Origin: a virus
Virus record (IMG/VR): IMGVR_UViG_3300031951_000331
Coordinates: 1-44,652 of that record
Reading direction: 5' to 3' (one strand)
DNA length: 44,652 nt
The notes below the pieces were generated by a model. The model saw nothing but the letters and a program-made list of their open reading frames with translations. It did not search any database and was not told where the DNA came from. Shown piece after piece: positions 4,635-19,832 of this stretch. The stretch's first letter is position 1. Each line of letters opens with the position of its first letter. The position numbers and the translations under genes were made by a program.

Positions 4635-5085
4635 AATCAGGCCGGCGCGGCCGGAGGACGTCGAGCCGATCGCCGCGGACATGCGGGAGGCTGACCGCCG
4701 CGAGGTCTGGGCCTCGAGCCTGGCGACGCCCCGGCTGGCCCTGGAGCGGTCTCTCGCCGCGTCGGCGGTGGCCTGGACGGGGCTGGTGGACGGACGCCCG
4801 GCGGCCATGTTCGGGGCGGCGCCGTTGTCTGAGCTGAGCGGGCGGGGATCTGCGTGGTTGCTTGGTGCCCGCGCCCTTGCGATAATCCCAAGGGATTTTC
4901 TCCTTCGCAGCAAGGACATGGTCGGCCTCATGCTGGAACGCTTCCCGGTCCTGACGAACCTGGTCGACGCGCGCAACGCGGCTTCGCTGCGGTGGCTGCG
5001 CTGGCTGGGGGCTCAATTCGGTCCGGCGCGGCCATACGGGCCGCTCGGGGCGCTCTTCGTCCCGTTCGAGCTGGGGAGGCGCTGA
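4621..5085 (+). CDS. Internal virion protein A-like (T7 gp13/DUF2833 family)
   Basis: The 154-residue protein opens IRPARPEDVEPIAADMREAD, the N-terminus of a GNAT-like acetyltransferase fold seen in the phage gp13/DUF2833 family. It ends with the NAASLRWLRWLGAQFG helix-strand that follows the acetyl-CoA site in that fold. Its place directly after the nozzle gene and before gp14-like matches T7 order. The start is taken as TTG 4621, preceded by GGAGGTGG at 4610-4617; no ATG fits as well. An exact copy of a 16-base regulatory-looking box lies inside the gene at 4877-4892. The stop overlaps the next ATG (TGATG). In T7 gp13 is dispensable for structure, and the exact role here is unknown. Confidence 0.82.
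   Translation: MASTEIRPARPEDVEPIAADMREADRREVWASSLATPRLALERSLAASAVAWTGLVDGRPAAMFGAAPLSELSGRGSAWLLGARALAIIPRDFLLRSKDMVGLMLERFPVLTNLVDARNAASLRWLRWLGAQFGPARPYGPLGALFVPFELGRR
4877..4892 (+). promoter_or_regulatory. 16-base regulatory box within the gp13-like gene
   Basis: TTGCGATAATCCCAAG is identical, base for base, to the box at 36515-36530 and oriented with transcription. No convincing -10 element lies 16-18 bases downstream of its TTGCGA, unlike the other copies. It may therefore be a binding site without a promoter, comparable in concept to the stoperators of mycobacteriophage L5. Confidence 0.45.
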
Positions 5086-5618
5086 TGTGCGACATGATCT
5101 CGATGGCGATCGCGGGGGTGGCCAGCACGGCGCTAAGCGCCTACGGGCAGATCCAGGCCGGCCAGCAGGCGCAGGCGGCGGCGGACTACAACGCGGCGGT
5201 CGCGCGGAACAACCAGATCATTGCCGACCGGCAGGCCGAGGACGCGGTCAAGCGCGGGCAGGTGGCCGAGGAGGAACAGCGCCGGCGGACGCGGGCGATC
5301 GCGGGCACGCAGCGCGCGGCGCTGGCGGCCAGCGGCGTGCAGCTCGATCAGGGCTCTCCGGCCGACATCCTGGCCGACACGGCGCAGTTCGGCGAGCTCG
5401 ACGCCCTGACGATCCGCAACAACGCGGAGCGCGAGGCCTACGGCTACCGCGTGCAGGGTATGAACTTCGGGGCCGAGGCGGGCCTCCAGCAGGGGCGGGC
5501 GTCGTCGGCGATGACGGGGGCCTACCTTGGCGCTGGGTCGACGTTGCTGTCGGGCGCGACGTCGGTGGCTGACCGCTGGTACACGCAACGGCGGCTGAAC
5601 GCGCCGAGGACCACCTGA
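5085..5618 (+). CDS. Internal virion protein B (T7 gp14-like)
   Basis: The 177-residue protein has an N-terminal hydrophobic helix (ISMAIAGVASTALSAYGQ). A long alanine/glutamine-rich helix follows (about residues 25-90), then a conserved RAIAGTQRAALAASGVQLDQGSPADIL region, and a glycine-rich hydrophobic C-terminal segment. This is the standard architecture of gp14-like proteins, which line the outer-membrane end of the ejectosome channel. The ATG at 5085 is chosen because it overlaps the previous stop and follows GGGGAGG; the longer open frame upstream is a shadow of the gp13-like gene. The stop overlaps the next start (TGATG). Confidence 0.88.
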   Translation: MCDMISMAIAGVASTALSAYGQIQAGQQAQAAADYNAAVARNNQIIADRQAEDAVKRGQVAEEEQRRRTRAIAGTQRAALAASGVQLDQGSPADILADTAQFGELDALTIRNNAEREAYGYRVQGMNFGAEAGLQQGRASSAMTGAYLGAGSTLLSGATSVADRWYTQRRLNAPRTT

Positions 5619-7930
5619 TGCCCCGCGTCCCGGTCGTGCAGGGCCAGGGGGTGATGCCCCAGGCCGTCGCCAATCCCTTCCTGCGGGCGCAGGCCTCCCC
5701 CTCCGATTTCGGCTCCGGCGAGGCGCTGGCGCGGGCGGGCCAGCAGCTCGCCTCTGCGGCCGACCGCATGGCGCAGCGGTTCGAGGTCATGCAGAAGGAG
5801 GACGACGCGCTCAAGGTCGAGTCTGCCTATGCGGCGTGGTCCGACCGCGAGCGGGCGGCGTTCTCGGACCCCGAGCGCGGCATCTACGCGCGCAAGGGCG
5901 CGAGCGCGATGGGCGCCTACGATGACGCGCGGGCGTGGTGGGACGACAACGCCAAGCGCGCGGTCGAGGGCATGGAGACGCCGCAGCAGCAGCGGCTGAT
6001 GCAGCAGATGCTCCTGCGCCGGCGCGACGCGGCGCTCGACGGGGTGGCCCGGCACGTCGCGCGCGAGCGCCAGACGGCGATGGGCGAGGCGTGGACGGCG
6101 CGCATCAAGGGCATCGAGCAGGACGCGGCGGCGGCCTACAACGACGACCGCAAGATCGCGGGGCTGATCGAGGAAGCGGACGGCGGCACGGTGTTCTGGG
6201 GCCAGCGGCAGGGCCAGACGCGCGAGGTGATCGACTTCAACCGGCGGGCGGTTCGCTCGCAGATCCGCGCGACGGTGATCGGCCGGATCGCCGAGACGGA
6301 CCCGGTGGCGGCGAAGGCGTACCTCGAGAAGCACCGCGACGAGCTGGACGGGGCGACGCAGGCGACGCTCGACCGCGCGCTCAAGGCGGGCGTGACGCAG
6401 CAGACGGCGCGCGAGGCGGTGGCGGCGGTGATGCCCAAGCCCGGCGAGCCGGTGGCGGTGGGCGACCTGCGCGATCGCATCTGGCGGGTCGAGGGCGGCG
6501 AGGCGCGCAATCCAGCACCGGGCCAGACCGCGCGCGGCGGCGGCATCACCGACCAGACGTGGCAGGAATACTCCAGGCGCCTCGGCCTCGACGAGAGTAC
6601 GCGCGGCACCCGCGAGGCGTTCGACAAGGTCTGGGTCGCCTACCAGCAGGATGCGACCGCTCGCATCGGTCGGGCGCTGTCGCCAGGCGAGCAGTACACC
6701 GCATGGTTCCTCGGGATCGAGGGCGCGCGGGCGTTTCTGTCCGCGGATCGGGGCGCTGACGCGCGCGAGGTCTACGGCCGGGTCGCGGGGGATCGGATCG
6801 CCGACCAGGCGTTCGCGGTGAACGGGAAGATGATGCAGCCCGGCATGACGGTCGGGCAGGTGCTGGATCAGATCACGGCCAAGGCTGGATCTGGGACGGC
6901 GGCGCCGTCCGAGGGAACCGTGCGCGGATCGCTCCAGCAGCGGCAGGCCGAGCTGCGCCAGCGCCTGGTGGGGCAGCCGCCGGAAGTGGTCGAGCGCGCC
7001 GAGGCCATGTTGCAGGCCGAGTTCGCCCAGCGCCGGCAGGCCGAGGACGACCAGCGCAACGCCGCGCTGCGGGCCATCCGCGAGAAGGTCTACAGCCTCA
7101 AGTCCCTCGACCAGCTCTCGCCGTCCGAGCTGGCGGTCCTTGACGGCGAACCGATCGAGCGCGAGCGCCTCGAGCAGTTCGTCTCGCGCCGGGGCAAGAC
7201 CGAGACAGACCCCGAGGTCTACGCCAAGCTGCGGCTGATGGACCCGGACGATTTCGTCGAGGTCGACCTGCTCGCGCCGGAGTACCGGACGCGCCTGTCG
7301 GAAAACGACTGGAAGCGGGAGGTCGATCGGCAGGCGACGATGACGCAGTCGGCGGATCGGCGCGCGGCGGCGGCCGAGAAGAGCGGCGAGCGCAACAGGG
7401 TGCAACTGGTCTCGGACGCGCTGCGCGAGGCCGGGATCGACCCGACGCCAAAGGAAAGCGACAAGAAGACTGCGGCGAAGGTCGCGTCGTTCAACCGCGC
7501 GCTGGATGGCCGGATCGACGGCTGGAAGGCCGAAAACAAGGGCAAGCGCATGACGTCGGCGGACATGCGCATGATGATCGACGAGCTGCTCGTCAACGGC
7601 GAGGTGCTGACCGGAAGCTGGTGGCGCAATGACGTCGACCGGACGGCGTTCCAGATGGCGACGGCGCCGGCAGAGGATCGGGCGCGCTTCGACGTGCGCG
7701 CCTTCACCTCCGACCCGGTCGATCGCGCGCGCCTGTCGCGGGTGACCGGCGTGCCGGTCGAGCAGCTCGACGGCGCCGTCGCGGCCCTCAAGCGGCTCGA
7801 GCTGCCGGTGACGCCCGAGACCCTGCGTGTCCAGCCCCTCGACAGCTACGTCGCCGCGCTGCGCCAGGCGGGCGTGCCGGTGACGGCCGAGAACCTCTCC
7901 ACCCTCCACAAGCGAGCCAACCGTCGATGA
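5618..7930 (+). CDS. Ejectosome protein with lytic-transglycosylase-like domain (gp15 position)
   Basis: This 770-residue, largely helical protein occupies the T7 gp15 slot between gp14-like and the giant gp16-like gene. Residues 1-270 are rich in coiled helices and resemble other podovirus internal virion proteins. Around residue 292 the RVEGGEARNP segment, followed by GITDQTWQEYSRRLG and YTAWFLGIEGARAFLSA (to about residue 380), matches the layout of phage lytic transglycosylases. In those enzymes an ESGG-like motif carries the catalytic glutamate, so E292 or E295 is the candidate here. In T7 that activity is in gp16, so its position in this protein is a rearrangement. It probably opens peptidoglycan during DNA injection. 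The stop overlaps the next start (ATGA). Confidence 0.8.
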   Translation: MPRVPVVQGQGVMPQAVANPFLRAQASPSDFGSGEALARAGQQLASAADRMAQRFEVMQKEDDALKVESAYAAWSDRERAAFSDPERGIYARKGASAMGAYDDARAWWDDNAKRAVEGMETPQQQRLMQQMLLRRRDAALDGVARHVARERQTAMGEAWTARIKGIEQDAAAAYNDDRKIAGLIEEADGGTVFWGQRQGQTREVIDFNRRAVRSQIRATVIGRIAETDPVAAKAYLEKHRDELDGATQATLDRALKAGVTQQTAREAVAAVMPKPGEPVAVGDLRDRIWRVEGGEARNPAPGQTARGGGITDQTWQEYSRRLGLDESTRGTREAFDKVWVAYQQDATARIGRALSPGEQYTAWFLGIEGARAFLSADRGADAREVYGRVAGDRIADQAFAVNGKMMQPGMTVGQVLDQITAKAGSGTAAPSEGTVRGSLQQRQAELRQRLVGQPPEVVERAEAMLQAEFAQRRQAEDDQRNAALRAIREKVYSLKSLDQLSPSELAVLDGEPIERERLEQFVSRRGKTETDPEVYAKLRLMDPDDFVEVDLLAPEYRTRLSENDWKREVDRQATMTQSADRRAAAAEKSGERNRVQLVSDALREAGIDPTPKESDKKTAAKVASFNRALDGRIDGWKAENKGKRMTSADMRMMIDELLVNGEVLTGSWWRNDVDRTAFQMATAPAEDRARFDVRAFTSDPVDRARLSRVTGVPVEQLDGAVAALKRLELPVTPETLRVQPLDSYVAALRQAGVPVTAENLSTLHKRANRR

Positions 7931-10900
7931 GCGATCTCCTGCTGACCGAGGCGCTGCGGCTCAAGTCCGACCTTGAGCGCCAGCGTCAGGCGCCGAGCGC
8001 GGCGGACCTCGAGGCCGAGGCGAAGCGGATGCTGGCCGAGCAGAACGCGCAGGCGGTCCGGCAGGCGGCGCAGAAGGTGGGCGACGTCGAGCCCGATCAG
8101 GCCGCGCGCGCGCAGGCGCTGGCGGCGCAGACGGGGCTCCCCGCGGGCGTCGTCGAACGCAACGTGAACGAGGTCGAGCGCCGCGTGCGCATGCAGGCCT
8201 TTGATCGGGTCGCGGAAGACCCGGCGATGGCGGCGTTCTACTCTGACCCGTCCAATCTGGCGGTGGCGTCCGACGATATCGACGTGCTGCGCAGCGTCGC
8301 GGACGTGGTGCGATCGTTGCCGGCTGGCGCAATGAAGGGCGCCGGTGCGGGCCTCAAGGGCCTCGGCGAACAGATCGACGCCGGCGCCCGCATGATCGAC
8401 CGCGGGGTGCGCGGGGTGCTTGGGAACCGCGTCGCAGACGCATTCTGGTTCGACTACGGACCCAACCCAGCGACGCTGCTGATCGATGCGGGGCGGGCAG
8501 CTAAGGGGGCAGGCGCTGAGATCGCCGCGCCCGTCGAGCGGCAGAACATGGCGACAGATGTCGGCGAAGGGATTGGTCAGCTCGGCGCGCAGATATTCGC
8601 GATGCTCGTTTCGCGAGGCATGCTGGGATTGCCGATGCTGCTGGGGCAGGGCGCTGACCAGCAGGCTGAGAAGCAGGAAAAGGTTGGGGCCAAGGGGACG
8701 GTCGAGGGCGACGCGGCGATCTTCGCCGGCGCCGCGGTGACGGCGCTGACCGAGCGGTTCGGCCTCGACATCCTGATGCGCAAGGTGCCGGAATCCGTCC
8801 GCTCGTCCATCCTCAAGAAACTGGCGGACGTGTCGGTGCGGTTCGGCGCGGAGTACGCGCAGGAGGTCGTCGAGGGCATCCTCCAGAACGTGGTCGAGTA
8901 CGCCTTCTACAACCCCAACGCGGAAATCTTCGAGGACTTCACCTACGAGGCAACGGTGGCCGGGACGTCGGCCGCGATCGTGCGGTCGATCATCCTGACG
9001 GCCAGCGGCGGCAAGGCGGCGGCGCGCGCGCGGCAGGCCTCAGAGAAGGCCGAGAAGCAGGCCGAGCAGCTCAAGACGATCAACCAGCTCGCCGAGCAGT
9101 CCAAGCTGCGCGAGCGCAGCCCGGACAAGTTCCGCGCCTTCGTCACCGGCCTGATGAAGCCGGACCAGGCGGTCGAGATCGACGCGCAGACGGCGGTGAC
9201 GCTGTTCCAGGAACAGCCCGACCTCGCTCAGTTCATGTCGCCGGAAGAGGTCGAGCGGCTGGCCCGCGACGTGGCGGTGGCGCAGGAGACGGGCGCTGAC
9301 GTCCGCATGCCGCTGTCGACCTTCGTCAACGCCTTCGTCGGCACGCCGGCCTTCGACACGCTGGCGGAGAACGTGCGGCTGAGCGACGACGGTGTCACCG
9401 CGCGCGAGGCGGCGGAATGGACGCCCGAGCAGGTCGAGGAGCAACTCGGCCGGATGCGCGACGAACTGGGCGACGTCGTCAGCAAGCAGGACCAGATCCG
9501 CACGATCTACGACGATATCTTCGGCCAGCTCAAGGCGGCGGCGCTCGACGACGTGGCGGCGACGCAGTACGCGGCGCTGGTGACCGCGCGGGTGCGCACG
9601 CGCGCGGATCGCCTCGGGCTCGACCCGGTCGACGTCTACCTCGAGAACCGGCCGCTGGTGCGCCGCCAGCTCACGGGCGGCAAGATCGACCAGCTCGACC
9701 TGACGCTCGACGACCTGCGTTCGCCGGCGAAGATCACGTCGCGGCGCGCGTTCGGCTCGTCGCTGCTGGAGTTCCTCTCGCAGCGCGGCGGCCTGATCGA
9801 CGCGGGCGGCGAGCTGAAGGGCATGGACGCCGACAAGTGGCACCGGGGCCAGAAGGGCCGGCGGCGGCTGGTCGTCGAGACGCGCAACGCGGCGGCTGGC
9901 GAGAAGCTCACGCCGGGGACGGTCGACGCGACCGAGGCCTCGAAGCTCTCGCTGGACGAGGCGGCGCGCGCGGCCTGGGAGGAAGGCTACTTCCCCGAGT
10001 TGCCCGATCGGGCGACGCCGGAAGACCTGCTGTCGGCGATCGAGGCCGAGCTGCGCGGCAATCCGGTCTATTCCCCGCGCAACCGCAACGAGGCGCTGGC
10101 GCAGCGCCTGGACGCCATGGGGCAGCTCGACGAGGTGCTGAACACGCTGGGCCTCGACGTCAAGGCGGTGACGGGCGAGCAGGTCCGCGAGGCCATGGAC
10201 CGCTATGCGGCGGGGCAGGACGTCAACGCGGACGGCGAGCGGACGCTGGAGCAGGGCGATAATCTGCCCGCCGGCGAGGGTTCTGGGCAGACCGCTACTC
10301 AGGCAGGGGGTGGCCAAGCTCCGGCCGCCCAGGCCGCGCAGGACGGGCAGCCAAAGGTGTCTTTGGGGGCAGAGAGGACCGCGACTGTCGAGAAGGCCGC
10401 GGCGCTTGATGGCGAAGCGACCCGGATCAGCAAGTCCAAGGCCTGGGCTACCGGGCGCGACCTAAAGTTGGCGTTCCAGGAGTCTGTGCAGAATGCGGCC
10501 AAGGCCGCCGGCGTCGACCTGACCTCAGACTCGCCCGAGACGATAGCGTTCCTAACGCGCATGGCTGTGCGCGACGCGATCGAGGCGTTCAAGACAAACG
10601 CCAACGCGGTCGGATGGTACGACCTCAAGACGCGCCAGGCGCTGGCGGTCATGTCGTTGGTGCATCCCGAGATCGCGACTGACGAGCTCGCGCGGTTCCG
10701 GTTCACTTGGGCGCTGGCGGTAACCAGCAACGGGCTGAAGGTCGACAAGAACTTCGAGCTTGCCGAGCAAGTCTACCGGAGGATGAAAGGGAACAGCGTC
10801 GCGCCGGGCGAGATGCCGACAGACATCGAGGCGGGTAACGCGCAGGCGGCGATCAACAATTCGCTGGGACTGTTCAACCGCTTGCAGAAGCTGTGGGGCA

Positions 10901-13900
10901 TCGACAATCTGCGCCGCTTCATGCTGACCGATTTCACGGTCAGCGAGATCACGGCTATCGACAAGGATCTGAGCCCGACCGGCGAGTTCTCGACCGAGAC
11001 CGTCCGCGGCGCCGCGATCATTGGGCCCAAGATCGGCAACGGGTTTTTCTCGAACCTGTATGGGTTCTTCGACGCGCTTACCATGGACCGATGGCTCGTC
11101 CGGTCCTGGGGGCGCTGGACCGGCACTCTGATCCAGGTCGACCAAGAGGCGGCATCGCGGGGGCGCACACGACTACGGGCTGCGCTGGGCGGGCTGGACG
11201 TTGAGGCGTTTGCGCGCGAGCTGCGCAGGATCACCAGGAAGGGCGCCAAGGGGCAAGACCTTGAGGTGAACCGCGCTGACCGCGAGCGCATGATTGCCGC
11301 GCTGGAGGCGCGCGCCGGGGCTGGCGCAGAAGTCGTGACCGACGCCGACCTGGACCAGGTCGCGCTTGCTGTTGGCAAGGGATCGGCGACGCCTCAATTC
11401 CGCGCCATAATGGACAGGGTCGGCGATGACGGCGGCGCCGCCGCATCGGCATGGGTTGCTGCCTACGAAGAGGGGCTGGCGAAGTTCTCTGGCGAGACGA
11501 AAAGCGAGGGTCTGGCGACCAAGTACGCAAACGATGCCGTCCCGGCGCCCGATAGCAGCTACGGGAAAGGGCTTCGCAACGCCGCCAACAACCTGGCGAA
11601 ACAACTTGACGGCCAGAAGGAGCAGCCCGCGGGGCCTGCCGAGCGCCAGAAGATCCGCGCGGTGTTTCGCCTTGCGCTGGCCGAGTTGCAGAAGCGGCCG
11701 GAGTTTGCGTCGCTCAACATGAGCGATTTGCAGGCGCTGCTCTGGTACGCGGAAAAGCGCCTCTACGAGACCGCAAAGGAAGATGTCGTTCTTGCCGAGA
11801 AGCCGGACGAGGCCGGCAAAGGAAGTGCGAAGACCAAGGTTGAGCCCGTCGACATCGGGGGGTATGATGACGACGAGGCCCCGGACTACGCCAACGCCGC
11901 CGCGGCAGTCGCGCGCGCGCAAGGCGTGTCGGAGCGTCGCATTAAGGCGGCGCTGACCAAGGAGGAAAAAAATGGACGCGCAGCAGCAGCACGACCTGGA
12001 GATGGCGGACTACAAGCCGGCGCCGGGCAGCCGCCAGCGGCTCGAGGCTTTGCTGGCTCAGAAAAGCGCCGCTTCGTCGGAGACGCTGCCACCCGGCGCG
12101 TCCGATCCGATCGCGGTCGCAATGCGGAACCATCCGGGTCTTACCAGGGAAGAGGCCGAAAAGATGGCAGAGGCGTTCGGCTTCTAAAGCCGGCAGACCT
12201 TGGTGTAACCGCGGTCGAGCGGTGGGAGGCGGGGCGCTACCTCAAGCAAGTTTTCAACCGAAATGGCGTCGAGACGCCGGCGTTTTTTGAACTGGCGCCT
12301 GGCGACGAAAAGAACGCGCAGGCTTTTGCGGCAGCAATTACCGCCGCGAAAGAACGGATGGGCGCCGTTGGGGCCGCCGTCTTTGTCTATGACCCGGCGG
12401 ACTATGCCGGCATGCGCCTGTTTCTGTCTGAGAACGGCCAGGCCGGCGTTGCGATCAAGCCGGACGGCGACATTGTGTCGGTGTTCGGCGGTGGCGGCAC
12501 AGGCCGCGCGGTCATGGAGCTGGCTGTCGCCGCAGGCGGTCGGAAGCTCGACGCATTCGAGACCATTCTCCCAGAGTTCTACGCCGCGCATGGCTTCCGC
12601 GCTGTTGCCCGTTTGACGTGGGATGACAGTCAGGCTCCTGCCGGATGGGACAAGGCGGCATTCGCCAAGTTCAACAACGGCGAGCCCGACGTCGTCTTCA
12701 TGGTTTACGACCCGGCCCACACCGGCCGGCACTCGTTGCGAGATGGGGTCAGGCTGAAGGGCGAAGGAAGCTACGACCGCGCCGTCAGGGCGCAGGCCCG
12801 CGAGATGAAGGCGATCGCCAATCGTGCCGGCGAGGGGCGAACCCTAGAACAGCCCGCACGCCCGCGCATCGCCACCTGGTTCTCGGGCGCGCGAACGCTC
12901 GAGGCCGCGATCGGCGCCGTCGATAGCACGATGGCGGTTGAGTACGACGCCGAGATCAACGAGTTCGCCAACACGGCCTTCGGCACCGCCTTCGTGACGC
13001 GCGGTGTCGGCGACGTCGACCCGCAGGAGATCGCGGACGCGGACGTCACGCTGTTTCACGCCAGCCCGGTCTGCAAGAACTTCAGCGCGGCCAAGACGCT
13101 GCGCGGCGCAAACGAGCTGGACCGGGCCAGCGCGCAGGCCGTGGCGCGCGCGATCACGGTGGCCAAGCCGCCGGTCGTCACGATCGAGAACGTGCCGCAG
13201 TACGCCGAGACGGCGCTGTTCAAGGAGATCACCGACGCGCTCAACGCGGCCGGGTACACCTGGGACATCGTCATCCACGACGCGGCAGACTACGGCGCGG
13301 CGCAGACGCGCAAGCGCATGCTGTTGCGCGCGGTGCGTGACGGCGAGTTGCCGCCGCTGCCGGAGAAGGTGGGGCCGAGCGACTGGTACGAGGCGCTGTC
13401 CGACCTGATCGAGGACGCGCCGGACGGGACGATCCCGCCGGTCGAGCGCCAGCGCCTCGACGACATGATCGCGAAGGGGCGCCTCGACGCGGGCCAGCCG
13501 ATCATCACCATGGGCGGGTCCGGGTTCCGGGGTAGCTGGTCTGCGGCGAACGCCGGCGGCGCGGCGCCGACGCTCAAGGCGGCGAACGAGAAGCCGCGGA
13601 TCATCCTGCCGGACGGCCGGGTGAAGGTCGTCACGCCGCGCATGATGGCCCGGCTGATGGGCCTGCCCGACACATACCCCGTGCCGGACTCGGCGACGCT
13701 GGCGAAGACGGTGCTGGGCAACGGCATCGAGGGCAACGTGACGCGCTCGCTGATCGCGCCGCTGCTGGAGACGGCGGGCGAGGGGCGGACGCTGGAGCAG
13801 CCCGCACGCCAGGACCGCGGCCCGCTCGCGACTGTCGAGGCGCAGCTCGCTGACCTTGCGGATGACATCGACGGGATCCGCGACGGCGAGTTCGATCCCG

Positions 13901-16900
13901 CCGCCGCGCGCAAAGTGCTGGACAAGCTGAGCGAGGGCGAGCGCGCGGACTATCGCGCGCGCATGCTGGACCGCGCACTGTTGTGGCTGGACGGACAGAT
14001 CGACGCCGATCAGGACGCTGTCGCGGAGGAGATCCTTGCGGTCCTGAACCGGTCCCAGCAGGTGGCCGAGATGCGTGGCCGGATGGCTGCGGCTGTCGAG
14101 CGCGGCGACACGCTGGAGCAGGGCGACGCGCGCGCGCCGGGCGCGACATTGCAAGTTCCAGCCGACATGGTTGGAAACCGCACATACGATGACCCAAAGG
14201 CTTTTGAAGAACTGCAACAAAACATCGCCGACTTTATCGGCGCAAAAATTGACGCGCGCGGCAAAAAATACATTCGGTCTAATCGGCACGATGGGTTCGT
14301 TGTGTCCGAGGATGGATTTTCCAGCGTTTATTTAAAGACGCCCGACAATCTTTTGCTTCGCGTTTCAAATCACAGGCCCAAAAACAAGCTGAGCGGCGCG
14401 TTTTCGGACATATATGTAACGATTGATAATCTTTGGGCCACGATAGAGCTGGGCAAAGAAAAGACGTTTGTGCCTGTAAACTTTCAGGACGAGTGGGACG
14501 AATATGTAGATCCCACTTTTGGCGACCGTCTTGGCGCTGCCTTGTCTGATGTAATTGCCAAGGCGCGAGCTGCGAAGAAGCAAGATTTCAATCAGCGCGA
14601 AGGCTCCATGCCCCGCGGCTCCATCCGCCTGCTTCCCGGCGGGCGGTCGATCATCACGCTGACCGAGAAGGCCGACCTCTCGACTTTCCTGCATGAGCTG
14701 AGCCACGGCTGGCTCGAGGAGCTGCGCGCCGACGCCCAGCGCCCCGACGCGCCGGCCGAGATTGTCGCGGACTGGGAGCGGACGGCGGCCTATCTCGGGA
14801 TTGCCCCGGACGTGGCCGAGATCCCGGTCGAGGCGCATGAGACCTGGGCGCGCACGGGCGAGGCGTACTTCCGCGAGGGCAAGGCGCCGGCGCAGGATCT
14901 TGCCTCGGTCTTCCAGCGGTTCAAGGCGTGGCTGACCCGCATCTACAAGACGCTGACCGAGCTGCGGGTGCCGATCAACGACGAGATCCGGGGCGTGTTC
15001 GACCGCCTGATCGCGAGCGACGAAGAGATCGCCGCGGCGCGGCGCGAGTACGGGCTCGACGCGCTGTTCTCGACGGCGCAGGCCGCCGGCATGACCGAGG
15101 CCGAGTTCAGGGCCTACGCGGACCTGGCGGCGCGCGCGCGGCTCGAGGCCGAAACCGAGGTCGCCGAGGCGCTCCAGCGCGACGCTGAACGCGAGCAGAC
15201 GGAGCAGTATCGCGAGGCGCGCGAGGCGATCGCCAACGAGGTCGAGGCGCAGGTCCGGGCCGAGCCGGTGCATCAGGCCATTGCGTTCCTGACGGCCGGG
15301 CGGCTGCCGGACGGCTCGACGGTCGACGCGCCGGTCAAGCTGGCGCGCGGCCTGCTCAAGGACGCCTACGGCGCGCGCGTGACCAAGCGTCTGCCGCGGG
15401 GCGTGACGGCCGACGAGGGCGTGCCGGCGGACATGGTCGCGTCCATGTTTGGGTTCACCTCTGGCGACGAGCTGGTGCAGGCCATGCTGGCCGCGCCGCC
15501 GATCGAGCAGGAGATCGAGCGCCGGACGCAGGCTCAGTTGCGCGCGCAGTTCCCCGACGCGCGGACGGACGGCCGGGCCTACGAGGCGTCGATCGCGGCG
15601 CTGCACGGCGACGGGCAGATGCGGGTTCTGGAGGCCGAGTTCCGGGCGCTGAAGCGGCTGGGCGCGGGCCAGATGGTCGACGCGGCGGTCCGGCGGACGC
15701 TGGCCGGCCAGAAGGCGCCGAGCGCGGCCGACGTGACCGACGCCGACGTGACGCAGCAGGAATCCGAGGCGGTGCGCATGTCGCCCGGCGCGGGGCCGCA
15801 GGGGCGCGCGGACGCGGCGCTGGGGCGGGCGCGCGTGCAGGCGACGGCCAAGGCGGCCAAGGACATGCGCGGCGACCAGGCGGCGGCCCGGCGCATCGCC
15901 GTCGACGCTCTGTCGGTCGACCGCGAGGCGATCGAGCGGGCCGTCGACCAGTTGAATGCGACGACGCAGGTCCGCGAGATCATGGACACGCAGCGGTGGC
16001 GGCGGGCCGAGAAGGCCGCGGCGAAGGCCGTGGTCGACGCGGTCGCCGGGCGCGAGTGGGCGGCGGCAGCCTGGCACCAACGCCAGCGCATCATCGCGGC
16101 GCACATGGTCAGGCGCTCGACCGAGGCCCGCAAGGAGATCGAGACGGCGATCGAGCGGTTCCGCAAGTATTTGTCGAAGAAGCCGGGCGCGATCGACTGG
16201 GACTACCTCCAGCGCGCGCGGGCGATCCTTGAGGCGTACCAGTTCGGCTCCGAGATGTCGGACCGCCGGCGGGCGGTGCTTGAGCTGCGGCAGATCGAGC
16301 GGTGGAAGGCCGCGCTGGCCGAGGACGAGCAGGCGAGGCTGGAGATCGCGCCGGAGATCCTGGCGGCGGATGGCACGACGCACTACCGCGACCTGACGCT
16401 CGAGGAGTTCATCGCGCTGCGCGACACGGTCGAGAACATCGTCGCGGTCGGCCGGACGAAGACGCGGCTCCTGCGCAACAAGGCCGAGCGCGACCTCAAC
16501 CGGACGGCGGCGCTGGTCGCCGAGACGATCCTCGACAACCTCAAGGTCAAGGCGCGGCGCTCGCGCGACGCAATCGAGAAGGGCGTCGGCTACGGGCTCG
16601 AGCGGTTCAAGAACCAGTTCTTCGCCTCGCACCGCAAGATCGAGAACCTGGTGCGGGAGATGGACGGCTTCGCGCCGCTGGGGCCGGTGTGGCAGGCGCT
16701 GTTCAAGCCCTTGCAGGACGCGCAGAACGACGAGACGCGCATGTCGATCGAGGCCACGGCCAAGATCAAGGAGCTGTTCGAGCGGTTCCCCGAGGACGGG
16801 CGCCGGACGTGGCGCACGCGCACGACCTACCATCCCGAGATCGGTCAGCCGCTGAGCAAGGCGACGGTGATCTCGCTGGCCTTGAACTGGGGCAACGAGG

Positions 16901-18519
16901 GCAACCGCGAGGCCATCCGCAAGGGCTTCAAGTGGTCGGACGCGCAGGTCGACGCGGTGTTCGCGCGGTCGATGACCGAGGCGGACTGGCAATTCGTTCA
17001 GTCGGTCTGGGACTACATCGACACGTTCTGGCCGGCGCTGGCCGCGCTTGAGAAGAAGGTCAAGGGCGTGGTGCCGGTCAAGGTGGACGCGGCGGCGGTC
17101 GCGACGCCGTTCGGCGAGTTCAAGGGCGGCTATTACCCGCTGAAGTACGACCCGGACATGAGCGAGCGGGCCTACTCGCACCAGGTCGACAAACTGGCGC
17201 AGCAGCTCATGAGCGGCGCCGTGGCCAAGGCCTCGACGCGGACGGGCGCGGCGATCGAGCGCGTGGGCTCCGGCGGCATGCCGGTGCGCCTCGAGCTCGA
17301 CGTGCTGTTCGAGCACGTCGCCGAGCTGATCCACGACATCAGCCACCGCGAGGCGATCCTCGACGTTGCCCGCCTGCTGGACCACCCCGAGGTCAGGGGC
17401 GCGATCCTCGACGTCAAGGGGCCGCAGTTCCATCGCGTCATGAAGGAATGGGTGCGCGACATTGCGGCTGGTGACGTTCCGGCCCTGAGCCCGTTCGACA
17501 AGGTGGTGCAGCACCTGCGGTCGGGCATGTCGATCTCGGCGATGGGCTGGAAGCTCACGACGGCGATGGTCCAGCCGACCGGCTTCTTCTCGTCGGCGGC
17601 GGCGCTGCCCAAGGGCGTGCTGGCCAAGCATGTCGCCAGCTTCTACGGCGCCCCGCAGGGGATGAAGCAGAAGGTCGCCTTCGTCTATGAGCGGTCGGTC
17701 GAAATGCGCACGCGCGCCAAGAGCCTCGACCGGGACATCCGCGACACGCTGCGGCAGCTTGGGCCGGAAGGCAAGATTGACGCGGTCAAGCGGTCGTTCT
17801 TCTACCTGACCGGCATGATGGACATGGGCGTCGCAGTGCCGACGTGGCTGGCCGCCTACGAGGTCGGCATGGAACAGTTCGACGGGGACGAGGCCAAGGC
17901 GATCGACTACGCGGACCAGACCGTGCGCACGACGCAGTCCTCGGGGCTCCAGAAGGATCTGGCGCAGATCCAGCGCGGCGACCCGCGCATGAAGATGTTC
18001 ACCGCGTTCTATTCGTTCTTTTCGGCCAGCTACAACATGATGGTCGACCAGGCGCGCGGCGTGCGTCGGCCGGCCGACATGCCAAAGTTCGTGGCCAACA
18101 TGGCGCTGCTGACGTTCCTGCCGGCGATCGCGTCCGAGCTGATGATGGGGCGCGGCCCGGAGGACGACGAGGAGCCGGAGGGCTGGGCGAAGTGGATGGC
18201 GGCGACGACGCTGAAATACGCGCTCAGCGGCTTCGTTGGGGTCCGCGACGTGGTCAACGCGCTGGGTTCCAATTTCGGCTACGCCGGCTCGCCGGTCGGG
18301 TCGGCGGTCGAGAGCCTCGTCCGGCTGGGCAAGCAGATCGGGCAGGGCGAGGCCGACCGCGGGCTGGTCAAGGCGGCGGTGGACACGGCGGGGCCGGTCC
18401 TGCACCTGCCAAGCCGGCAAGCCTGGATCACGGCCGAGGGCATCTACCTGTGGGCCGAGGGCGCCGACATCACGCCGTTCGAGATGTTCGTCACCCGCGA
18501 CCCGGACAAGTTTCGTTGA
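7927..18519 (+). CDS. Giant polyvalent ejection protein with embedded C5 methyltransferase (gp16 position)
   Basis: At 3,530 residues this is far larger than T7 gp16 (about 1,300). Modules in order are: a helical/hydrophobic N-terminal region (1-480); a conserved phage module with FLSQRGGLIDAGG and WEEGYFPEL (about 600-760); a module of unknown function (about 830-1345); an R/G-rich segment overlying a nested gene (1350-1421); a GNAT-like module (about 1422-1640); a cytosine-C5 methyltransferase (1643-1954); an AT-rich-coded module (2066-2220); a zincin-like segment HELSH at 2256-2260; long helices; and an LPD38-like C-terminus (about 3150-3530). The methyltransferase shows SPVC with Cys1716, IENV at 1753-1756, QTRKR at 1793-1797 and LGNGIEGNV at 1930-1938. 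TLEQ occurs at 773, 1639, 1955 and 2062. Injection with the DNA, where it could modify or protect the genome, is inferred from its position and from what is known of polyvalent proteins. Confidence 0.85.
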   Translation: MSDLLLTEALRLKSDLERQRQAPSAADLEAEAKRMLAEQNAQAVRQAAQKVGDVEPDQAARAQALAAQTGLPAGVVERNVNEVERRVRMQAFDRVAEDPAMAAFYSDPSNLAVASDDIDVLRSVADVVRSLPAGAMKGAGAGLKGLGEQIDAGARMIDRGVRGVLGNRVADAFWFDYGPNPATLLIDAGRAAKGAGAEIAAPVERQNMATDVGEGIGQLGAQIFAMLVSRGMLGLPMLLGQGADQQAEKQEKVGAKGTVEGDAAIFAGAAVTALTERFGLDILMRKVPESVRSSILKKLADVSVRFGAEYAQEVVEGILQNVVEYAFYNPNAEIFEDFTYEATVAGTSAAIVRSIILTASGGKAAARARQASEKAEKQAEQLKTINQLAEQSKLRERSPDKFRAFVTGLMKPDQAVEIDAQTAVTLFQEQPDLAQFMSPEEVERLARDVAVAQETGADVRMPLSTFVNAFVGTPAFDTLAENVRLSDDGVTAREAAEWTPEQVEEQLGRMRDELGDVVSKQDQIRTIYDDIFGQLKAAALDDVAATQYAALVTARVRTRADRLGLDPVDVYLENRPLVRRQLTGGKIDQLDLTLDDLRSPAKITSRRAFGSSLLEFLSQRGGLIDAGGELKGMDADKWHRGQKGRRRLVVETRNAAAGEKLTPGTVDATEASKLSLDEAARAAWEEGYFPELPDRATPEDLLSAIEAELRGNPVYSPRNRNEALAQRLDAMGQLDEVLNTLGLDVKAVTGEQVREAMDRYAAGQDVNADGERTLEQGDNLPAGEGSGQTATQAGGGQAPAAQAAQDGQPKVSLGAERTATVEKAAALDGEATRISKSKAWATGRDLKLAFQESVQNAAKAAGVDLTSDSPETIAFLTRMAVRDAIEAFKTNANAVGWYDLKTRQALAVMSLVHPEIATDELARFRFTWALAVTSNGLKVDKNFELAEQVYRRMKGNSVAPGEMPTDIEAGNAQAAINNSLGLFNRLQKLWGIDNLRRFMLTDFTVSEITAIDKDLSPTGEFSTETVRGAAIIGPKIGNGFFSNLYGFFDALTMDRWLVRSWGRWTGTLIQVDQEAASRGRTRLRAALGGLDVEAFARELRRITRKGAKGQDLEVNRADRERMIAALEARAGAGAEVVTDADLDQVALAVGKGSATPQFRAIMDRVGDDGGAAASAWVAAYEEGLAKFSGETKSEGLATKYANDAVPAPDSSYGKGLRNAANNLAKQLDGQKEQPAGPAERQKIRAVFRLALAELQKRPEFASLNMSDLQALLWYAEKRLYETAKEDVVLAEKPDEAGKGSAKTKVEPVDIGGYDDDEAPDYANAAAAVARAQGVSERRIKAALTKEEKNGRAAAARPGDGGLQAGAGQPPAARGFAGSEKRRFVGDAATRRVRSDRGRNAEPSGSYQGRGRKDGRGVRLLKPADLGVTAVERWEAGRYLKQVFNRNGVETPAFFELAPGDEKNAQAFAAAITAAKERMGAVGAAVFVYDPADYAGMRLFLSENGQAGVAIKPDGDIVSVFGGGGTGRAVMELAVAAGGRKLDAFETILPEFYAAHGFRAVARLTWDDSQAPAGWDKAAFAKFNNGEPDVVFMVYDPAHTGRHSLRDGVRLKGEGSYDRAVRAQAREMKAIANRAGEGRTLEQPARPRIATWFSGARTLEAAIGAVDSTMAVEYDAEINEFANTAFGTAFVTRGVGDVDPQEIADADVTLFHASPVCKNFSAAKTLRGANELDRASAQAVARAITVAKPPVVTIENVPQYAETALFKEITDALNAAGYTWDIVIHDAADYGAAQTRKRMLLRAVRDGELPPLPEKVGPSDWYEALSDLIEDAPDGTIPPVERQRLDDMIAKGRLDAGQPIITMGGSGFRGSWSAANAGGAAPTLKAANEKPRIILPDGRVKVVTPRMMARLMGLPDTYPVPDSATLAKTVLGNGIEGNVTRSLIAPLLETAGEGRTLEQPARQDRGPLATVEAQLADLADDIDGIRDGEFDPAAARKVLDKLSEGERADYRARMLDRALLWLDGQIDADQDAVAEEILAVLNRSQQVAEMRGRMAAAVERGDTLEQGDARAPGATLQVPADMVGNRTYDDPKAFEELQQNIADFIGAKIDARGKKYIRSNRHDGFVVSEDGFSSVYLKTPDNLLLRVSNHRPKNKLSGAFSDIYVTIDNLWATIELGKEKTFVPVNFQDEWDEYVDPTFGDRLGAALSDVIAKARAAKKQDFNQREGSMPRGSIRLLPGGRSIITLTEKADLSTFLHELSHGWLEELRADAQRPDAPAEIVADWERTAAYLGIAPDVAEIPVEAHETWARTGEAYFREGKAPAQDLASVFQRFKAWLTRIYKTLTELRVPINDEIRGVFDRLIASDEEIAAARREYGLDALFSTAQAAGMTEAEFRAYADLAARARLEAETEVAEALQRDAEREQTEQYREAREAIANEVEAQVRAEPVHQAIAFLTAGRLPDGSTVDAPVKLARGLLKDAYGARVTKRLPRGVTADEGVPADMVASMFGFTSGDELVQAMLAAPPIEQEIERRTQAQLRAQFPDARTDGRAYEASIAALHGDGQMRVLEAEFRALKRLGAGQMVDAAVRRTLAGQKAPSAADVTDADVTQQESEAVRMSPGAGPQGRADAALGRARVQATAKAAKDMRGDQAAARRIAVDALSVDREAIERAVDQLNATTQVREIMDTQRWRRAEKAAAKAVVDAVAGREWAAAAWHQRQRIIAAHMVRRSTEARKEIETAIERFRKYLSKKPGAIDWDYLQRARAILEAYQFGSEMSDRRRAVLELRQIERWKAALAEDEQARLEIAPEILAADGTTHYRDLTLEEFIALRDTVENIVAVGRTKTRLLRNKAERDLNRTAALVAETILDNLKVKARRSRDAIEKGVGYGLERFKNQFFASHRKIENLVREMDGFAPLGPVWQALFKPLQDAQNDETRMSIEATAKIKELFERFPEDGRRTWRTRTTYHPEIGQPLSKATVISLALNWGNEGNREAIRKGFKWSDAQVDAVFARSMTEADWQFVQSVWDYIDTFWPALAALEKKVKGVVPVKVDAAAVATPFGEFKGGYYPLKYDPDMSERAYSHQVDKLAQQLMSGAVAKASTRTGAAIERVGSGGMPVRLELDVLFEHVAELIHDISHREAILDVARLLDHPEVRGAILDVKGPQFHRVMKEWVRDIAAGDVPALSPFDKVVQHLRSGMSISAMGWKLTTAMVQPTGFFSSAAALPKGVLAKHVASFYGAPQGMKQKVAFVYERSVEMRTRAKSLDRDIRDTLRQLGPEGKIDAVKRSFFYLTGMMDMGVAVPTWLAAYEVGMEQFDGDEAKAIDYADQTVRTTQSSGLQKDLAQIQRGDPRMKMFTAFYSFFSASYNMMVDQARGVRRPADMPKFVANMALLTFLPAIASELMMGRGPEDDEEPEGWAKWMAATTLKYALSGFVGVRDVVNALGSNFGYAGSPVGSAVESLVRLGKQIGQGEADRGLVKAAVDTAGPVLHLPSRQAWITAEGIYLWAEGADITPFEMFVTRDPDKFR
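11972..12187 (+). CDS. Nested small gene, 71 residues, inside the giant gene
   Basis: An open frame one base out of register with the giant gene begins MDAQQQHDLEMADYKPAPGS and ends GLTREEAEKMAEAFGF. It has its own strong ribosome binding site, AAGGAGG at 11959-11965, six bases before the ATG. Roughly 80% of its third codon positions are G or C, as in real genes here. In the giant frame over the same bases only about half are, and the encoded sequence becomes R/G-rich and featureless. Small proteins ending in a PGLTREEAExMxExxGF motif are familiar to me from phage and prophage loci, but I know no function. It is either expressed as an overprinted gene or is a relic of a gene boundary absorbed into the giant frame. 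Confidence 0.6.
   Translation: MDAQQQHDLEMADYKPAPGSRQRLEALLAQKSAASSETLPPGASDPIAVAMRNHPGLTREEAEKMAEAFGF
14128..14580 (+). other. AT-rich coding module within the giant gene
   Basis: GC content falls to about 40-48% in the 60-base rows I counted (14161-14220 and 14401-14460), against clearly higher values on both sides. The encoded residues (about 2066-2220) include KKYIRSNRHDGFVVSEDG and FSDIYVTIDNLWATIELG. The segment lies between a TLEQ motif at 2062-2065 and an FNQ motif at 2221-2223. It looks like a recently acquired cassette. Confidence 0.6.
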
Positions 18520-18584: not shown

Positions 18585-19832
18585 ATGACTGTCGCGAGCG
18601 CAGTATCCAGGTCGGGGCCGTACACCGGGAACGGAACGCAGACCGTCTTCGCCTACGGGTTCAAGGTGTTCGCGGCGTCCGACCTCCAGGTGGTCCTGCG
18701 GTCGTCGAGCGGCATCGAGACCGTGCAAACGCTGTCGACGCACTACACCGTGAGCGGGGTGGGGTCAGACGCGGGCGGCAACGTCACGATGGTGAGCGCC
18801 CCGGCCTCGGGCCAGACGCTGACGATCGTGCGGTTGGTCCCGCTGACGCAGGAAACGGACCTGCGCAACCAGGGGGGCTTCTACCCCGAGGTCCATGAGC
18901 GGGCGTTCGACCGACTGACGATGCAGGTGCAGCAGGTCGACGAGGAGCTCGAGCGGTCACTTTCGTTCCCGGTGTCCGACGCGGCGCTTGAAGCGACGCT
19001 GCCGTCGTCGGCGATCCGCGCGAACAAGGTGCTGGTGTTCGACGCGACCGGGGCTCCGGGCGTGACGGACGTGGCCGGGCTGGCCAGCGTGACCGCGACG
19101 GCGTTCGTCAACGTGCAGGAGTTCACCGGCAACGGCGTGGCCGTTTCGTTCACGCTCCAGAACGCGCCGGCATCGGCGAACGCGATCACGGTCTCGATCG
19201 GCGGGATCGTCCAGTCGGCGGTCTCGGACTATTCGCTCGCAGGCAACGTCCTGACCTTCACCGCTGCCCCGCCCAATGGGCAGCTCATCATCGTGCGGTG
19301 GATCACCGCGGCGGGTGCCGGCACCTATGTGCCGATTTCCGCGACGGTGGCGGGCACGTCAGAAGTGCGGGCGAACGGCGGCGCGCTCAACGTGCAGGGG
19401 GTTGGATCTGGTAGCGGCGCGGTGTCGGCCATCAACCAGTATTCCTATTACGGAGCGTCGCAGAACGTATTCGGCAACCTTGGCCGCGCGTACACCGCAG
19501 GTGGAACTCCGACATCGCCGGCCGCGAGCGGGGGCCTTACTGGGTTTGAGACGCGAGAGTGGTACGGCCACGACGGGTCTAATTTCGTGCGGGGGGCGCT
19601 GTTCGCCGCTCGCGCCACGGCGGCCCCGAGTACGGGCTCCGTGCCGATGGAATTGGGATGGGGTATCGGCTCGGGCAGCGCGCTCAACGTCGTTCTGCGC
19701 TCCGGCGGACAGTGGCGCTTCGTCCCCATGGCCAGCGCGCCAGCCTCGCCGCTGGCCGGGGATGTCTACTACGACAGTGGCACGAACAAGCTGCGCTGCT
19801 GGAACGGCAGCACCTGGAACGACCTGTTCTGA
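18585..19832 (+). CDS. Tail fibre protein (T7 gp17-type N-terminus)
   Basis: The 415-residue protein starts with the podovirus tail-fibre anchor domain: YTGNGTQTVFAYGFKVFAAS, then TVSGVGSDAGGNVTM, QTLTIVRLVPLTQETDL and FDRLTMQVQQVDEELERSL (residues about 10-135). This domain docks fibres onto the tail tube. It is followed by a beta-rich shaft with a second FTGNGVAVSFTLQNAP copy of the same fold (about 180-240). The C-terminal GDVYYDSGTNKLRCWNGSTW motif is common at phage fibre ends. It follows the giant ejection gene, as gp17 follows gp16 in T7. It probably carries host specificity, alone or with the BspA-like protein and the 20170 gene. Confidence 0.9.
   Translation: MTVASAVSRSGPYTGNGTQTVFAYGFKVFAASDLQVVLRSSSGIETVQTLSTHYTVSGVGSDAGGNVTMVSAPASGQTLTIVRLVPLTQETDLRNQGGFYPEVHERAFDRLTMQVQQVDEELERSLSFPVSDAALEATLPSSAIRANKVLVFDATGAPGVTDVAGLASVTATAFVNVQEFTGNGVAVSFTLQNAPASANAITVSIGGIVQSAVSDYSLAGNVLTFTAAPPNGQLIIVRWITAAGAGTYVPISATVAGTSEVRANGGALNVQGVGSGSGAVSAINQYSYYGASQNVFGNLGRAYTAGGTPTSPAASGGLTGFETREWYGHDGSNFVRGALFAARATAAPSTGSVPMELGWGIGSGSALNVVLRSGGQWRFVPMASAPASPLAGDVYYDSGTNKLRCWNGSTWNDLF

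Follow-up and report, generated by a model that had tools for sequence, protein, structure and literature searches.

The window analyzed here is the whole 44,652-nt stretch of IMG/VR virus record IMGVR_UViG_3300031951_000331. The genes around a giant ORF follow a T7-like order: after tail tubular proteins and a gp14-like internal virion protein, the slot of gp15 is taken by an endolysin-like gene and that of gp16 by the giant ORF itself, with a tail fiber gene next (Table 1). The giant ORF contains LPD22, a C5 cytosine methylase, an acetyltransferase-like region and a HELSH motif and, judged by these sequences, its product is a polyvalent protein with several disparate domains in one polypeptide. 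Proteins of this kind have been predicted to be injected (PMC5512222), and the gp16-like position of the giant suggests that it is probably injected into the host with the DNA. The giant also repeats TLEQ at window positions 10243, 12841, 13789 and 14110 (residues 773, 1639, 1955 and 2062) and has a zincin-like HELSHGW motif at 14692 (residue 2256); these may possibly represent self-processing sites of the polyvalent protein.

Table 1. Window coordinates of the nested gene, its signals and the surrounding features.
Feature	Position	Strand	Basis or remark
Internal virion protein, gp14-like	4854..5618	+	phrog_418
Giant ORF, 3530 aa, polyvalent protein, T7 gp16 position	7927..18519	+	LPD22, C5 DNA methylase, phrog_9880, T7-like neighbors
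Conserved upstream module (LNMSDLQALLWYAEKRLYE...GYDDDEAPDYANAA...GVSERRI)	11581..11970	+	In relatives, nested gene starts a fixed distance behind
TGA in small frame	11954..11956	+	Five codons before ATG; closes frame upstream, frame open from 11957
Shine-Dalgarno AAGGAGG	11959..11965	+	Sequence; within the giant gene no other such site precedes a start codon
Giant-frame linker under nested gene, residues 1349-1420	11971..12186	+	Mostly low-confidence model, one helix
Nested overprinted gene, 71 aa	11972..12187	+	+1 frame of giant; homologs and constraint
N-terminal motif MDAQQQHDL	11972..11998	+	Most widely common part of nested family
C-terminal motif HPGLTREEAEKMAEAFGF and stop	12131..12187	+	Common to relatives with acetyltransferase-like module downstream
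Acetyltransferase-like module of giant	12313..12702	+	phrog_2563; phage relatives annotated acetyltransferase or minor capsid protein
Tail fiber gene after giant, gp17-like	18585..19832	+	phrog_1640

Within the 3530-codon giant ORF, in its +1 frame, lies a 71-codon ORF that begins with ATG at 11972 and ends with TAA at 12185-12187. The Shine-Dalgarno sequence is separated from this ATG by a 6-nt spacer and is the only AGGAGG, AAGGAG or GGAGGT inside the 10.6-kb gene with a start codon 3-12 nt downstream. The preliminary description had placed a nested frame with its own AAGGAGG at 11972, in another frame of the giant gene; these coordinates were exact, and the giant frame is open throughout.

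The third-position GC content (GC3) over the nested ORF is 0.82 in the small frame and 0.48 in the giant frame, the latter below the lowest value, 0.51, of any other 71-codon window in the giant. These values agree with the figures of about 80% and about half on which the preliminary description had relied, although its reasoning largely reflected frame geometry: GC3 was rejected as proof of coding because the third positions of the +1 frame are the first positions of the giant, and the +1-frame baseline in the giant gene is 0.70 +/- 0.08, with 7.7% of windows reaching 0.82. The length of the ORF was also rejected as evidence, as chance ORFs of up to 281 codons occur in the giant gene. In addition, 93.5% of synonymous recodings of the window giant leave the small frame open. 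In this GC-rich window alone the nested ORF would prove little, and it is the comparison across phages that settles the matter.

Homologs of the nested ORF

Relatives were collected from IMG/VR via the small protein and via the conserved upstream module of the giant, which ends APDYANAA...SERRI and directly behind which the nested gene begins. The upstream module was present in 232 loci from IMG/VR, public records and the window (counted again as L001), some of which share a contig; without L001 they comprise 117 distinct 90-nt anchors. A script scored the nested ORF in 217 of the 232 loci, giving 103 distinct proteins, with doubtful starts in five of the scored loci (L172, L179, L214, L225 and L236). 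Fourteen of the 15 unscored loci show the nested reading frame by eye in the +1 translation, although one of them, L202, is truncated where its contig ends; L053, whose module is divergent, is the sole one with no visible nested frame. The nested proteins found include one from an isolate, Limnohabitans phage DC33.

The register of the nested ORF was constant (+1) in all loci that carry it, and the giant frame was open over the nested ORF in 102 of the 103 distinct cases. The exception was a single haplotype (L079/L086, identical to L140/L141) with an in-frame giant TAA near 5216, at the nested 3' end, in which the nested ORF extends ten codons longer. In DC33 the nested ORF has 48% identity to that of the window and lies in the equal relative frame within a 9378-bp CDS. 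The isolate records of DC33, MW202722 and MW202640 annotate one giant CDS here, without the nested gene. Among 50,697 phage records the only homolog of the nested protein was that of DC33, nested there too, and a search of plasmids for the upstream module found none. The DC33 record (PQ492659.1, L002) is filed under Inoviridae, though DC33 has dsDNA of 39 kb (PMC12195039) and carries a relative of the giant gene.

An AT-rich marine family (L163, L203-L217 and L246-L305) carries a nested ORF of about 124-133 aa in the equal place, within an open giant frame in all 52 scored loci; eight more were unscorable by the motif used. These ORFs have an AQEE motif near the start, often behind AGGAGGTAGACA, and a 129-aa version had no homolog in the 50,697 phage records. 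Two further loci (L041:6344-6532 and L042:6344-6532) have a 62-aa nested ORF with a near-perfect AGGAGGT Shine-Dalgarno, a different downstream module and no HPGLT...FGF tail. A candidate relative in a Lacunisphaera MAG (L040:7001-7114) was rejected as only a decayed fragment: it retains an incomplete part of the nested gene, in which stops soon interrupt both frames, near an apparent tRNA 3' end.

ATG is the start codon in 86 of the 103 distinct nested proteins, and an in-frame stop lies a median of five codons upstream of the nested start. Compared with the other ATGs in its locus, the nested one has the strongest Shine-Dalgarno in six lineages, and in about half it ranks in the top 10%; several lineages have none before the nested ORF. 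Five loci (L175, L179, L184, L214 and L225) have ACG where relatives start the nested ORF with ATG, yet beyond this codon the nested frame is retained. In these loci the giant codon is, for example, GAC for GAT, which is synonymous.

A motif of the AQ(Q/D/E) type is common to the N-termini of the nested proteins, and their C-terminus tracks the downstream module of the giant: HPGLTREEAEKMAEAFGF or close variants precede the acetyltransferase-like module, and other or shorter tails are found elsewhere. The module after the nested gene in L160, for instance, is ART-PolyVal. The C-terminal motif had been attributed to a recurrent small phage protein; it does recur, but in homologs of the nested gene and not in any catalogued family. 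Scans of 15 members against Pfam, PHROGs and the PDB gave nothing above noise, and no significant match was found in BFVD. The predicted structure of the window protein has four helices and no fixed fold (pLDDT 75, pTM 0.31). Direct reading of the sequence, which is hydrophilic and modeled as helical, revealed no lipoprotein signal and no transmembrane or hydrophobic segment. An Rz1-like nested lysis gene was rejected on these grounds, and the product is most simply read as not being a lysis protein because it has no such signal or segment.

Constraint on both frames

Pairwise divergence at the third positions of the giant was 0.20-0.44 in the overlap versus 0.50-0.74 outside it. The first positions of the giant in the overlap, which are the third positions of the small gene, change about as much as first positions elsewhere and not like free third positions. 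A synonymous-conservation scan of approximately 6.6 kb of the giant peaked at 11968-12180 (z 8.6), and the best window outside the nested ORF reached z 2.1. In the reverse test, small-frame codons that keep their residue were identical in 0.69 of cases versus 0.48 expected (z 8.1). When codons were recoded synonymously so as to preserve the small proteins, chance rarely left the giant open (summed log10 P -65 for 34 representatives), and the converse test, of an open small frame given the giant, gave a summed log10 P of -20 and was strong in the AT-rich phages; the 34 representatives are related, and the summed probabilities are to be read as indices, not p-values.

Within the aligned region, conservation is lowest in the overlapped segment of the giant. 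The codons of this segment are nevertheless constrained and it keeps a conserved stretch, GFTxxEKRxF...RxRSxR, so that the R/G-rich filler of the preliminary description is not pure filler. AlphaFold modeled the giant linker under the nested gene mostly with low confidence, except for one helix, and Foldseek of the giant fragment returned no significant match.

Together, the synonymous peak in the giant and the codon conservation in the small frame indicated that both frames are constrained, and homology and constraint across phages place the nested ORF above chance. The ORF lies wholly inside the giant gene in a different frame and is conserved in place and frame. We infer from the sequence comparisons that it is very likely a real gene with independent initiation, an old overprint on a linker, that is translated into a stable product.

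Origin and possible role of the nested gene

Two alternative readings involve the A7 run. The giant frame might be an assembly or sequencing artifact that hides two genes, and a homopolymer A7 does lie at the start of the overlap; however, the equal layout recurs in metagenomes that are independent of one another, the complete genome of an isolate has it within one 9378-bp CDS, and the giant-frame codons are constrained inside the overlap, so that this reading is almost certainly wrong. Alternatively, programmed frameshifting or slippage at the A7 run could yield a truncated fusion of the upstream half of the giant with the small frame, for which the window offers GGAAAAAAATG with a strong Shine-Dalgarno just upstream. 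At least six A residues just before the start are present in only 13% of loci, though, and the upstream closure of the small frame and the prevalence of ATG starts noted above also count against a fusion. With no conserved slippery site and no open frame upstream, the frameshift product was rejected as very improbable.

A different question is how the overlap arose. The preliminary description proposed that a former junction between two genes had been absorbed into one reading frame. In such a history the flanking modules were separate genes with the small gene between them, loss of a stop fused them, and the small frame would be the older here. Consistent with this are the GC3 of the giant over the overlap, its lowest in the gene, the weak conservation of the overlapped giant segment, the more genome-like codon usage of the small frame in 25 of 34 representatives, and the one haplotype with a giant stop at the nested 3' end. 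The codon-usage ranking flips in AT-rich genomes, however, where the giant frame is the more genome-like, and codon usage was rejected for dating the frames as ambiguous, since it flips with genome GC. A different downstream module brings a different nested C-terminus, the nested gene is present even in shorter giants that stop soon behind it, and among internal overlaps the newer frame is usually the +1 (PMC8227390). Moreover, a search via the upstream module found no relative in which separate flanking genes have the small gene between them. With the register fixed and the giant open over the nested ORF in all but one haplotype, the evidence does not support an absorbed junction, which would have to be a very old event and which we regard as unlikely. 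The overlap is old in either case; it predates the sampled clade, as no locus has separate flanking modules with the small gene between.

Based on these observations, we propose that ribosomes probably initiate independently at the nested Shine-Dalgarno and ATG on the mRNA of the giant, a late phage gene. The overprint occupies a linker between two giant modules, with a start fixed behind one and a 3' part that varies with the next. Its product would be a small helical partner of the giant, made from the shared transcript and consisting of an AQQEHD helix conserved at the N-terminus and a C-terminal helix that differs between lineages; this partner might help to assemble the giant or to load it into the virion core, or might be ejected with it. 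Position and motif conservation point to such a role, the most likely of those considered, which we propose tentatively. More speculative still is the proposal that a large T7-like clade shares a near-obligatory overprinted gene as the dedicated partner of its giant injected protein, and that module exchange rewrites the C-terminus of the partner, because the nested gene at its 3' end runs over the beginning of the following module.

The small protein might instead be a host-directed factor, for example against a defense, that is encoded inside the giant gene by happenstance and plays no part in the virion. Viral proteins that arose de novo by overprinting often suppress host defense (review PMC8227390), small proteins of phages frequently target the host (PMC11323111), and the C-terminal part of the nested protein varies by lineage. 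However, the N-terminal motif is common to phages with a locus GC of 33% to 70%, probably with different hosts, which fits a partner among the phage proteins better, and the nested gene lies within a block of virion-structural genes. We consider a host-directed factor rather unlikely.

Comparison with known systems

In its LPD22, C5 methylase, acetyltransferase-like region and HELSH motif, the giant resembles the polyvalent proteins described by Iyer et al. 2017 (PMC5512222). A search of the text of that paper for overlapping, nested and small-protein yielded nothing about nested genes, and the DC33 paper (PMC12195039) makes no mention of overlaps. No published description of the nested family was found in the open-access literature, which is not proof of absence. 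Overprinted genes nested wholly in another gene are already known from phages, and the present family is absent from the libraries searched.

Small virion proteins that are ejected are represented in T7 by gp6.7 and gp7.3, which are encoded by free-standing genes. The likeness to the present case is that these are small phage proteins linked to the virion core and that the giant occupies the T7 gp16 position; the difference is that the present gene is nested, and PHROGs gave no sequence link of the nested protein to gp6.7 or gp7.3. If the nested gene is translated, it would tie a small protein to the way in which giant injected effectors are loaded or used, a connection that can be tested.

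Fully nested overprinted genes are represented in phages by lambda Rz1 in Rz and by phiX174 E in D and B in A. As in those pairs, a complete small gene, here with a predicted start of its own, shares a strand with a longer gene and is read in a different frame within it. Unlike them, the nested gene here is unrelated in sequence and encodes no lipoprotein signal or hydrophobic segment, its host is a 10.6-kb polyvalent gene, and its 3' part differs according to the next module of the giant. The overprinting sits on a linker of a modular protein, where double coding should cost least, and if translated it would constitute a broadly conserved overprinted gene in dsDNA phages.
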